The notes under the pieces are model-generated. The model had not been told where the DNA came from and did no database searches. It saw only the letters and a program-made list of their open reading frames with translations. From Bdellovibrionales bacterium CG10_big_fil_rev_8_21_14_0_10_45_34 (GTDB lineage Bacteria; Bdellovibrionota; Bdellovibrionia; Bdellovibrionales; 1-14-0-10-45-34): DNA of 64,000 nt. Each line of letters opens with the position of its first letter. The first letter of the stretch is position 1. A program made the translations under genes and the position numbers. The DNA is taken from positions 248,001-312,000 of the forward strand of contig PEZS01000011.1 of the NCBI GenBank assembly GCA_002778785.1, in the 5' to 3' direction. This document shows positions 31,294 through 35,390 of this stretch, piece after piece.

Positions 31294-33327
31294 TCAGTTC
31301 CAAACGGGAGAAAACGAACCGACTGCGTCCATAGAACCACAGCTGGATTCAGAAGCTTGAGTTGCTTGGCGTGGAAAGACTTGAAACGGTTCACTGTAGA
31401 GTGTCTTTTCCCAGGGGAACAAGGGGTTTACTACATGGCTACTTCGAAAGGATTTTAGTTCATCTAGGCTCATACCGTAGACGCCTTTCATCGTAGGGAT
31501 CATTGCCCAGGATAAACCGCTCTCAGGATGAAAGTTACATCCGGTAAACTCCATTAGAAGATTCATATAGCCCTGAATCAAAGCGTCGTAGAATCTCTGC
31601 CTTTTTAGGTCATCTGAATCATCAAGAGTTGAAAGCGCCATATTCGTTTGATTTTGCGCCACGAGATAGTTGCTCATTGTTTTGTGAAATCGATCAAGAA
31701 TAACGCAGGCACCTTCACTGATCGGTCGGCCTAAGTCTCCCTCGATATAACACTTAGTTGTGTCGCCGCTATTGGGATATGTAATTCGATCAGCACTAAT
31801 TAAATCTTTCATCCAACTTTCTGTCGATGCGACATCGATAAGCCCCGCATGCAGCCAATAAACCATACAGCGAGTTAAGCGAGAAAGCTCTACATTCGTA
31901 CTGCCTCCAGAGCTCCCCGAACTGAGTGTTATTTCACCCGCCGTCGAAGCGTTCGCTTGTGATGGGTCGCAAGGACTGCCTCCCACACCGCCGCTGATCT
32001 GAAAGAGACGATATAAAAAGGTTCCCGTGTTTTTGAAACCTGGCAAGCCCCCGCTTGAACTGTAAAGCACAACACCGCGACCGCTTTCAATACTCTCGGT
32101 AAGACCGAGAAAATTTCTCATATAGATTCTCAGTCCAAAAGCCTCACCGCTTTGACTTGTTTTGCGAGATTCAGGTGAAGTTAGATTGTTGACGTCAACC
32201 GGCCTGACCGCTGCCGCAGTCCTGCCCATAGCGAGAGTTTCGTGTAACTGCGATAAGAACTTTTGTGCCACTGGCACACTCCAGCCCCCACCTTGATCGT
32301 AATCGACAAATCGAAGGTCAAGCCGCTTCGCTTTCGCGCTTCGAAACTCTGTACCCTTATAGTCTTTTTGCGAAAGAAATATTTCGTAAGTGCGAGAATT
32401 GCTTTCGATGCCGTCGGCCGTCTTTCGCCAAAAATTGTAGCCTCCCCTAGAAGGAATTGTGCGAACCCCTGTGCTTGCTGAAAAGTAACCATTGTAACTG
32501 GCGTTCGGAGGCTGAGTTGATCCTGCCGGCAATGGCTGACAAGGAACATTTTCTATGAGCGCAAAATCAATGCTTTGGTTTGCTGAATGAACTGGGTCTT
32601 CACGAATGAGCACATTGACTTTATTTGGCGATAAACCATTCGGGTCTCGATGGCAAAAGCCCGTAATGGAACTTCTTTTGACCCCGTTTTCTTGAAACTT
32701 GAATTCAAAACGGTCACCAATAATTTTTTCAACCCGAATAAAATCATAAGACCAATAGTCACCTAAAACATTTGTTTGGCCCGCCCGGGTGTCCAAGTAA
32801 GGCGATGGGGGAATAGCTTGCGTCAAAACGCTCATTTCGTCCCGAGAGCCGGGCCCCCGAAACGGATTGTCTAGATCATCTAGCCCTAAAAGTGCCACTT
32901 CGAATTTAGCTTGGCCGTTACCCGACAAATTGAGTTTGTGAAATTCTGTTATGACGATCTCAAATCGTCCTCGTTCGCATCCTTTAACACCCATTTCGGA
33001 ACCACTTTTAACAACTCTTCCATCCGAATCTAAGAATCCCCAGTCGAGCCGAGTCCTTTTGAACCCACCGTCGTCGCAGTTTCCTCTAAATGCGACCTCA
33101 CTATCGGTAATAGAAACGATGCGAGAGGGCGAGGTTTGATTAGCGTCCGTCTCTACTTGAATGGAAAGCTTATTTGGGTCGCCTGTACCATTGGAACAGT
33201 CCTGCCCAGTACAAAATGAACCTACTCCTACGGCAGCCCAAGGACTGTTACCGCCCACTTCTGCACAATTCTGATATATAAGGGCTGATGAAAACAATCC
33301 TATTAAGAAAATTGCCAGTCTCACCAT
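31294..33327 (-). CDS. Large secreted protein of unknown function, probable lipoprotein
   Basis: A 677-residue exported protein. The N-terminus (hydrophobic core at 3-17 then QNC at 19-21) resembles lipoprotein signals of related bacteria, where the Cys follows an aromatic/Asn residue, although the lipobox is poor. The mature protein is Cys-containing, Ser/Gly-rich and beta-like in the first half; the second half has helices and mentions of paired Cys (CDPSQ, CMVYW, CYIE, CVIL). I recognise no domain. It starts with ATG after GGGGGAC. A sigma-54-like element and a terminator lie in the upstream 300 bases on the opposite strand. Confidence 0.55.
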   Translation of the reverse strand: MVRLAIFLIGLFSSALIYQNCAEVGGNSPWAAVGVGSFCTGQDCSNGTGDPNKLSIQVETDANQTSPSRIVSITDSEVAFRGNCDDGGFKRTRLDWGFLDSDGRVVKSGSEMGVKGCERGRFEIVITEFHKLNLSGNGQAKFEVALLGLDDLDNPFRGPGSRDEMSVLTQAIPPSPYLDTRAGQTNVLGDYWSYDFIRVEKIIGDRFEFKFQENGVKRSSITGFCHRDPNGLSPNKVNVLIREDPVHSANQSIDFALIENVPCQPLPAGSTQPPNASYNGYFSASTGVRTIPSRGGYNFWRKTADGIESNSRTYEIFLSQKDYKGTEFRSAKAKRLDLRFVDYDQGGGWSVPVAQKFLSQLHETLAMGRTAAAVRPVDVNNLTSPESRKTSQSGEAFGLRIYMRNFLGLTESIESGRGVVLYSSSGGLPGFKNTGTFLYRLFQISGGVGGSPCDPSQANASTAGEITLSSGSSGGSTNVELSRLTRCMVYWLHAGLIDVASTESWMKDLISADRITYPNSGDTTKCYIEGDLGRPISEGACVILDRFHKTMSNYLVAQNQTNMALSTLDDSDDLKRQRFYDALIQGYMNLLMEFTGCNFHPESGLSWAMIPTMKGVYGMSLDELKSFRSSHVVNPLFPWEKTLYSEPFQVFPRQATQASESSCGSMDAVGSFSPVWN

Positions 33328-33450: not shown

Positions 33451-33467
33451 TTGGCACTGCATTTGCT
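33451..33467 (+). promoter_or_regulatory. Sigma-54-type -24/-12 promoter
   Basis: TTGGCAC (33451-33457) and TTGCT (33463-33467) match the sigma-54 consensus TGGCAC-N5-TTGCT exactly. The GG and GC pairs are 10 bases apart, as required. Transcription would begin near 33478. It lies in an intergenic region between a divergent lipoprotein gene and oppA, where such a site would be functional. A bacterial enhancer-binding activator is expected but no site was identified. Confidence 0.55.
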
Positions 33468-33477
33468 CTATATATTT

Positions 33478-33531
33478 GTAACCCCCCTGAGCGGCTTGGT
33501 CTCCCCCCCTTTGCCAAGCCGCTTTTTTTTT
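33478..33531 (+). ncRNA. Candidate 54-nt sigma-54-dependent small RNA
   Basis: The predicted transcript begins at the +1 of the sigma-54-type promoter and ends at the rho-independent terminator, so it would be only about 54 nt: a short C-rich 5' end (CCCCCC), a 10-bp stem, a 14-base loop with seven C, and a U tail. C-rich loops can pair with purine-rich ribosome sites; the divergent lipoprotein gene has GGGGGAC and several genes here have similar sites. This is a prediction from sequence, with no evidence of expression. Confidence 0.35.
33490..33531 (+). terminator. Strong rho-independent terminator
   Basis: AGCGGCTTGG (33490-33499) and CCAAGCCGCT (33514-33523) form a perfect 10-bp stem with a 14-base loop (tctccccccctttg), directly followed by nine T (33523-33531). 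It reads on the + strand, where no protein gene lies upstream (the upstream gene is on the - strand). It would separate transcription starting in the gap from oppA, whose GTG lies about 95 bases further on. Confidence 0.85.
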
Positions 33532-33626
33532 GCCAAAATCACCCCTCAGACAGCTAAAATTCTAATAGTTTTGAAGATTTAGCGTTTTCACAACTATGGC
33601 TAGTCTACTGATAGGGGAAAAATCTC

Positions 33627-35390
33627 GTGAGGCTCTTCGGTTCCAAACACAGACTTCAATTAGAAATTATTTCAAAAACGTTACGAAAAATGTCGCTGCT
33701 GGCTGCCGCATCGACACTCCTTTGTGCCTGTTGGGATGCGGAACAAAGGCCAGAGGGATTTGTTCGGTTATCTCTATCACAAAGCTTAAGAAGTTTAGAT
33801 CCGATTGATGCGACCGACTACTCCAGCCAACTTGTGCTGTCCCAGATTTACGAAACCTTAATTAGTTACGAAAACACTCAGGCTTCCTCAGATCGCAGAA
33901 AACTTAAGCCCCAACTGCTTGAAAAAATGCCGACCTATTCGGACCGGGGCAAAAAGGTACATCTTTCGCTCAGGAAAAATGTCTTTTTTCATGATCACGC
34001 CGCATTTAAAAAGTCTAACGGTAGAGGTCGCAAGCTAGTTGCCGGCGATATAGTTTATTCTTGGAAGCGATTGTGGTTGTCCTCTCAGTCGAGCTCTGAT
34101 AGTCGCGCGTTCTTTAGTAAAATAGTTGGCCTCTCTAAATGGAGAGAGGGCGTGAAAAGTGGAAGTATAAGATTCGATGACGACATTGAAGGTCTCATTG
34201 CTACAGATGAACAAAATCTCGAATTAGAATTCAGCGAACCCTTTAGACAGTTCGAGTTGTTACTTACGCAAGTGATGACCGCTCCAGTCCCCTTTGAAGC
34301 TTTGGCAGAAAGCCCAAAAGCGCTCAACTTAACGAGTGTAGGGACTGGGCCTTACAAACTGAAATCAGCAGATTTGGAAAGTCAGATTTTGTTAGAAAAG
34401 AACGAGAGCTATTGGGGATCTGTCGAAAACAATGGTGTGGAGTTTTACAAGATGTCTGACTCACAACCTAGATGGCTGAATTTTATGAAGGGAGAACTTG
34501 ACTGGATCACTGTCGATGAAGAAACCTCCATGACCGCCTACGAAGGAGGCCAACTCCAACCCGCAGTCAAAGAGATGGGTATCTCAGAAGTGACTGTCAA
34601 TTCCCCCGATATCGTCTACCTTGCATTTAACATGGAAGATGCAGTTGTTGGTCGCAGTCGCGCCCTTCGGCAAGCCATCTCTATGAGTATAGACAGAAAT
34701 GCCATCCTGAGCTCGGTATATATGAACTTGGGATCTGAGGCCCACGGGCCCATACCTATAGGCGTCGAGGGGTTCCGTTCGGATTTTAAGAATCCTTATT
34801 CGACCCGCGATTTAGAAAAAGCAAAGGAACTCCTTGCTAAGGCGGGCTACAACGACGAGCACCCGGTACCGACGCTAACAATTGAAAGTTTGTCCGATGC
34901 AGCTAATAGGCGATTCGCTGAGGTGTTTAAGAGTCAGCTAAAAGAAGTAGGGATCGAAGTTAAGATATCCTTGAACTCCTGGCCCGAACTCGTCCGCAAG
35001 CAAAAACAAAAAGAAGGGCAAATCTACGGCCCCATCGCTTGGATCGCCGATTATTTAGACCCGGCCAATATATTTCAGTTGTTCTTATCTTCAGAAGAAA
35101 GTCCGGGGCTCAACGTCTCTAATTACAACAACTACGAATTTGATCGCCTGTTTCGAAAGTCGCTCAAAGAGGAGGGGCGCAGCGAAAGAACTGAGGTTTA
35201 CGAAAAAATGTTGGAGATTATAATCGAGGATTCTCCTTGGGTGTTTTTGGTTCATCGAAAAATTCGGTATTTGGTTCACCCTTGGATTTCCAATTTCTCT
35301 CCGGATCGGGTTGACCTGTCGTTTATTAAGAATGCGAAGGTTGACCTTGGTGTAAAGAAAAACCAGAAACAATCTCTCTTTAGAAGATGA
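33627..35390 (+). CDS. oppA: Peptide ABC transporter substrate-binding lipoprotein (OppA-like)
   Basis: A 587-residue SBP_bac_5 protein. The N-terminal hydrophobic segment ends in LLCAC, a lipobox, so it is a lipoprotein. LSLSQSLRSLDPIDATDYSS, LRKNVFFHD and SMSIDRNAIL are the usual regions of peptide-binding proteins of the Opp/Dpp family. It would capture peptides and deliver them to the permeases encoded next. The GTG at 33627 follows AGGGGA at nine bases; ATG 33690 is inside the signal. It overlaps the oppB start by 4 bases. Peptide uptake suits a protein-consuming, possibly predatory, lifestyle. Confidence 0.92.
   Translation: MRLFGSKHRLQLEIISKTLRKMSLLAAASTLLCACWDAEQRPEGFVRLSLSQSLRSLDPIDATDYSSQLVLSQIYETLISYENTQASSDRRKLKPQLLEKMPTYSDRGKKVHLSLRKNVFFHDHAAFKKSNGRGRKLVAGDIVYSWKRLWLSSQSSSDSRAFFSKIVGLSKWREGVKSGSIRFDDDIEGLIATDEQNLELEFSEPFRQFELLLTQVMTAPVPFEALAESPKALNLTSVGTGPYKLKSADLESQILLEKNESYWGSVENNGVEFYKMSDSQPRWLNFMKGELDWITVDEETSMTAYEGGQLQPAVKEMGISEVTVNSPDIVYLAFNMEDAVVGRSRALRQAISMSIDRNAILSSVYMNLGSEAHGPIPIGVEGFRSDFKNPYSTRDLEKAKELLAKAGYNDEHPVPTLTIESLSDAANRRFAEVFKSQLKEVGIEVKISLNSWPELVRKQKQKEGQIYGPIAWIADYLDPANIFQLFLSSEESPGLNVSNYNNYEFDRLFRKSLKEEGRSERTEVYEKMLEIIIEDSPWVFLVHRKIRYLVHPWISNFSPDRVDLSFIKNAKVDLGVKKNQKQSLFRR

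Follow-up and report, generated by a model that had tools for sequence, protein, structure and literature searches.

GlmY and Qrr are sigma-54-dependent small RNAs (sRNAs). They are larger than the RNA considered here, adopt other folds and work with other partners (Hfq, RapZ); the likeness lies in a small RNA with a sigma-54 promoter of its own, predicted in the present case, and an Rfam search found no sequence relation. Other described sRNAs resemble it in their C-rich loops. RepG (HPnc5490) of Helicobacter pylori pairs through its C/U-rich terminator loop with the G repeat of an mRNA leader (PMC8295292). The Xanthomonas RNA sX13, which also exposes C-rich loops, represses mRNAs that carry G-rich motifs close to their start codon and has been reported to act without Hfq (PMC3771888). 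In Actinobacteria, 6C RNA/B11 (RF01066) has loops with C runs, among them a terminator loop that is used for target pairing (PMC12395582).

For the predatory bacteria, a 2013 transcriptome of Bdellovibrio bacteriovorus described eight attack-phase sRNAs, and no homologues were reported outside that species; only RNAs with higher levels in attack phase were listed in this survey (PMC3627812). RNAs of 54 nt can be lost from such libraries. A search of open PMC papers found no sigma-54-dependent or C-loop sRNA in Bdellovibrio.

The RNA analysed here is encoded in a 64-kb stretch of Bdellovibrionales DNA, called the window below, and is probably a new family of a known kind in minimal form, in which a single hairpin, presumably driven by sigma-54, serves as terminator and probable pairing site. 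It would share with RepG the form of a short stand-alone sRNA and, like it, has a C-rich terminator loop, but RepG has two stem-loops and belongs to an unrelated phylum, whereas here there is one hairpin, the 5' tail carries an additional C run and the sigma-54 promoter is conserved. Three stem-loops distinguish sX13, and a second RNA of the source genome (type II, below) is closer to it in layout. With 6C/B11 the RNA has loops with C runs in common, but not layout, promoter or phylum. Because its own promoter, its terminator and its two C runs match the layout of RepG, sX13 and B11/6C, the mechanism of a C-loop sRNA is proposed. With a probability of about 0.62, we read it as a minimal, stand-alone, sigma-54-driven sRNA of about 54 nt, whose C-rich loop would act in trans to repress mRNAs with G-rich ribosome sites.

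The locus and its predicted transcript

The features of the locus and its two flanking genes are the following.

31294..33327, minus strand: divergent gene with a lipoprotein signal (IYQNC), leader GGGGGACTTTTTAAATATG, no Pfam family
33451..33467, plus strand: sigma-54 -24/-12 promoter element, TTGGCAC-N5-TTGCT, an exact match with GG at 33453-33454, GC at 33465-33466 and GG-N10-GC spacing
33478..33531, plus strand: predicted sRNA of about 54 nt, a single genomic copy (covariance model R1, 72 bits, E 1.3e-14)
33482..33487, plus strand: single-stranded C6 run of the 5' part, first putative pairing site; a C run lies 3-5 nt past +1 in most relatives
33491..33524, plus strand: hairpin AGCGGCTTGG / CCAAGCCGCT, doubling as terminator stem (fold z -5.1; covariation)
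33501..33514, plus strand: terminator loop TCTCCCCCCCTTTG, which includes C7 and is the second putative pairing site (loop composition of 108 relatives)
33523..33532, plus strand: intrinsic terminator T tract, preserved in almost all relatives
33627..35390, plus strand: oppA-like solute-binding protein gene (PF00496), 93 nt downstream, not a conserved neighbour

The start site is a prediction, G33478 lying 12 bases from the C of the promoter GC, so that the predicted 5' end stands about 12 nt after a -24/-12 element with GG-N10-GC, as sought in a sigma-54-dependent sRNA. From there to the end of the T tract (approximately 33478-33531) the RNA would read GUAACCCCCCUGAGCGGCUUGGUCUCCCCCCCUUUGCCAAGCCGCUUUUUUUUU. 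RpoN is encoded in the source genome. The preliminary description had reported an exact -24/-12 element with GG-N10-GC spacing at this place, and it proves to be the sole exact match (TGGCAC-N5-TTGCW) in the window; shuffled windows contain 0.09 sites on average, and genome-wide there are 8 exact sites, as opposed to 1 in a reversed control. Since 9 of 100 shuffled windows hold at least one site, the match taken by itself is moderately surprising at most. This count is what speaks for a chance, non-functional pair of promoter and terminator, an extremely improbable reading, contradicted by the fact that promoter and spacing, the C runs and a covarying stem have been kept throughout the order.

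The runs of six C in the 5' part and seven C in the loop, both announced in the same description, are read at the locus. Its perfect 10-bp stem followed by nine T is present as well, but in the predicted fold two further pairs close, which makes 12. The RNA folds as one hairpin of -20.1 kcal/mol (z -5.1 relative to shuffles).

Rfam 15 returned nothing at gathering level in the window. At loose thresholds, 6C, ncS54 and LhrC scored weakly, far under their cut-offs; membership of 6C RNA (RF01066) was rejected at 20.9 bits (E 0.91), compared with a gathering score of 47. The earlier suggestion of an undescribed regulatory RNA is supported, since the order has kept the whole set of promoter, C runs, stem and terminator, and neither an Rfam family nor an open PMC paper that describes it was found.

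Hairpin, loop and C runs among relatives

In an alignment of 98 distinct sequences, which was fitted to the structure and hence leans towards a paired result, 99.3% of the stem cells are paired and five pairs are altered on both sides. There are 55 double-changed cells, against 21.6 in shuffles, and none of 500 shuffles was equally good. Stem position 7 is T-A or A-T at roughly 50:50 among genomes. Judged from this pattern of substitution, selection acts to keep the stem paired.

The loops of 108 relatives comprise 978 C, 233 U, 206 A and 15 G. The longest C run of the loop measures at least 5 in 98 of the 108, and the C7 of the locus agrees with the run of about six C that characterizes 6C RNA; an unpaired C run in the terminator loop is likewise what is seen in RNAs of the RepG/sX13 kind. 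A coding role was considered and rejected, the ATG that follows the C run in HD100-type sequences being absent from the window and from several other families.

Ten genomes (G129, G118, G124, G127, G103, G139, G031, G123, G125 and G015) carry CCUCCUUA inside the RNA, the sequence of the 3' tail of 16S rRNA, the anti-Shine-Dalgarno. The loops that bear it look like copies of the anti-Shine-Dalgarno sequence, identical to the 16S rRNA 3' end.

These features bear on a different reading, in which the C-rich tail and loop act as a decoy that titrates an RNA-binding protein (for example Rho, or one of the KH or cold-shock type) or as a general brake on translation. It would account for the conservation of homopolymer C without fixed flanking bases, which is not that of a defined seed, for the occurrence of the anti-Shine-Dalgarno sequence in the ten genomes, and for a stem in which GCG..CC is conserved beyond the needs of pairing. 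Nevertheless, both C patches are placed like the pairing sites of known C-loop sRNAs (PMC8295292, PMC3771888, PMC12395582), and we consider the decoy rather unlikely; pairing of the two patches with mRNAs is the reading preferred here.

Conservation and distribution

A DNA search of 39 genomes, the source and its relatives, recovered promoter, C run and hairpin in ten other genomes, an eleventh match (L013) consisting of the terminator only. Covariance model R1 was then applied, which was built (alignment A1) from the RNA alone, with the promoter left out. R1 matches occur in 113 of 140 Bdellovibrionales genomes (90 of the 102 of good quality) and in 54 of 65 genera, the genus Bdellovibrio among them, and nearly always as one copy; the runner-up in the source genome reaches 17.8 bits (E 0.6). 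Inspection of weak second matches within a genome (L120 in G023, L122 in G139) revealed no promoter.

Upstream of the best R1 match, GG-N10-GC is correctly placed in 105 of 108 genomes, when chance would be estimated to supply it, in the stretch examined, in about one genome in ten. All 11 bases of the -24/-12 consensus are present in 44 of these genomes and at least 9 in 96; G is the commonest base at the predicted +1, and in 85 genomes the C run begins 3-5 nt later. The exceptions that lack a placed GG-N10-GC are G034, G119 and G005, the last of them cut by a contig end. Because the promoter is absent from the model, its coupling to the RNA is independent evidence, and the promoter-hairpin pair, whose search in related genomes had been proposed at the outset, is found order-wide. 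Promoter and hairpin at fixed spacing, kept throughout the order, are, on these alignments, not chance.

When 84,980 species of bacteria and archaea were scanned with a sequence pattern, 79 matches emerged, and the complementary arm is present in 51. All 51 belong to Bdellovibrionales/Bdellovibrio kin, including B. bacteriovorus kdesi (NZ_CP102930.1), and their T run is unbroken in 48 and short in 3. The other 28, which lack the second arm and the T run, are scattered over unrelated groups and were discarded. In a search of the phylum, the only convincing copies outside the order came from two genomes of a sister order (G269, G270), both with the sigma-54 element. Matches outside the class (G278, G301, G343, G168) were set aside, as they have no proper sigma-54 element and resemble chance terminators.

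RpoN is present in 126 of the 140 genomes of the order. Loss of RpoN as an explanation for absence of the RNA was rejected, since several genomes without the RNA retain rpoN. Small-genome lineages (G105, G106, G112-G115) gave no RNA match and have kept RpoN, which is strongly diverged in G112-G115.

The G030 copy lies at 2,620,000-2,620,058 on the minus strand, and for the comparison of coordinates G030 was assumed to be equivalent to B. bacteriovorus HD100 (3,782,950). None of the eight attack-phase sRNAs maps to 2.62 Mb, where G030 carries the RNA (PMC3627812).

Neighbouring genes and the upstream region

The flanking proteins cluster as a conserved block composed of a coiled-coil gene, the RNA, an amidase gene (PF01520), the RNase PH gene rph (PF01138) and rdgB (PF01725). 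The RNA is directed at the amidase gene in most families and, inverted, at the coiled-coil gene in the genus Bdellovibrio, whereas oppA adjoins it in the source genome (G000) and in G002 only. An attenuator-like leader of oppA, which had been entertained in the preliminary description, is thus not borne out: oppA is a neighbour in just these two genomes, amidase-rph-rdgB is the usual arrangement, and the RNA is inverted in Bdellovibrio.

A broader form of this proposal is a cis-acting attenuator or insulator, that is, a leader made from the sigma-54 promoter and terminated at the hairpin, some transcription continuing into the amidase gene, the coiled-coil gene or oppA. It draws on the observation that a co-directional gene begins 20-120 nt past the terminator in most genomes. 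A conserved downstream gene in the same direction, as a cis leader would have, was not found; instead there are three different genes, and in some genomes, for example G011, G025, G061 and G069, the next gene is convergent. The RNA has its own predicted promoter and terminator, and its orientation to the neighbours flips. No alternative antiterminator fold was seen, the terminator looks strong everywhere, and this model leaves the conserved C runs unexplained. Because neighbours and orientation vary among families, a leader or attenuator of one gene is unlikely, and for the cis model as a whole the odds are clearly low; the stand-alone, trans-acting sRNA is retained.

In the genus Bdellovibrio, a conserved block about 70-120 nt before +1 holds the palindrome CGACAATTGTCG and TGTC-N9-GACA (for example L066 and L068). 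The CGACAATTGTCG block recurs in g44 (L124), and no shared upstream activator site was found outside the genus and g44. The block is a likely activator site.

Type II RNA and other C-loop RNAs

A second RNA of the source genome, here called type II, follows another of the eight exact sigma-54 sites (G000:C1:279877-279892, minus strand). The predicted transcript spans G000:C1:279866-279781 on the minus strand (L318, L340), about 83 nt, and consists of a C-rich 5' tail, a hairpin around ATCGCCCCACGAT whose loop is GCCCCAC or close to it, and a terminator hairpin with the loop CCCCUCC. Type II RNA with its upstream sigma-54 element is also present in L341 (G004), L342 (G012), L343 (G018), L344 (G002) and L345 (G007), and in most loci it sits between M16-peptidase-like and FliL-like genes, which were named by eye and not by profile. 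Therefore, a sigma-54-driven C-loop RNA is no one-off in the source genome.

More hairpin-terminator RNAs with a CCCCUCC loop were observed (L346, L347, L350, L351, L355, L357, L358, L361), such as AAAGCCTCTTGGTCCCCTCCACAGAGGCTTTTTTTTT, with no sigma-54 element directly upstream. In Bdellovibrionales, the CCCCUCC loop apparently recurs as a module.

Candidate targets and Hfq

In the source genome, the duplex energy of the two C patches is at or below -12 kcal/mol for 12.7% of leaders, compared with 2.3% of coding pieces. Any C-rich RNA should show this preference for leaders, since ribosome sites are G-rich. fliW and the divergent lipoprotein gene, which had been put forward as targets, are plausible but not outstanding, with ranks 27 and 38 of 361 leaders by duplex energy.

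Runs of G5 before the start codon are found in 18 of 130 envelope genes of the source genome and in 14 of 231 others (p 0.02), the envelope class, secreted proteins and lipoproteins, having been assigned by a home-made signal-peptide rule. The bias was not replicated in a G030 sample (9/142 versus 12/215, p 0.8). Among 39 G7 genes from six genomes, 21 are envelope genes (p 0.03 against a background of 38%). Given the home-made rule and the lack of replication in G030, envelope targeting is held as a lead only.

Lipoproteins that combine an xNC-type lipobox (QNC, TNC, INC) with a run of 5-7 G immediately ahead of the start codon turn up repeatedly, in different genomes (L132, L175, L180, L181, and the gene starting at 33327 on the minus strand of the window). 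Separately, the exact sigma-54 promoters of several genes (L330, L329, L334, L335) are followed by very short leaders with G4-G8 ribosome sites, for example GCATTAGGGGGCTTTATG. The RNA could therefore act within its own sigma-54 regulon.

A search of six genomes of the order found no Hfq, a result in keeping, by analogy, with the Hfq-independent sX13.

Proposed mode of action

The model supposes that, once a sigma-54 activator is switched on, RNA polymerase would start at G33478 and stop at the T tract of the hairpin, as we infer from promoter, spacing and terminator. The C run of the 5' tail and that of the terminator loop would both be exposed in the product and would pair in trans, without Hfq, with stretches rich in G that lie at the ribosome-binding sites of several mRNAs or close to them, and this pairing would block translation of these messages. 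Repression of G-rich messages is argued by analogy, starting from the conserved transcription unit. Secreted proteins and lipoproteins would probably be among the targets, as the G-run counts tentatively suggest.

A wider and doubtful extension is that the 54-nt RNA, type II and the CCCCUCC-loop relatives might constitute a dedicated set of sigma-54-driven C-loop RNAs. Working without Hfq, they would compete as a regulatory layer with the ribosome for G-rich sites complementary to the anti-Shine-Dalgarno, and might reshape the envelope or flagellar proteome at the phase switch of the life cycle.

Significance

The regulatory RNAs of predatory bacteria are nearly unexplored, with one paper and eight sRNAs (PMC3627812). 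The RNA described here is tiny, is kept by almost the whole order and has a predicted promoter of a known type. It offers a direct handle on the role of sigma-54 in these predators and on the chaperone-free action of C-loop RNAs.
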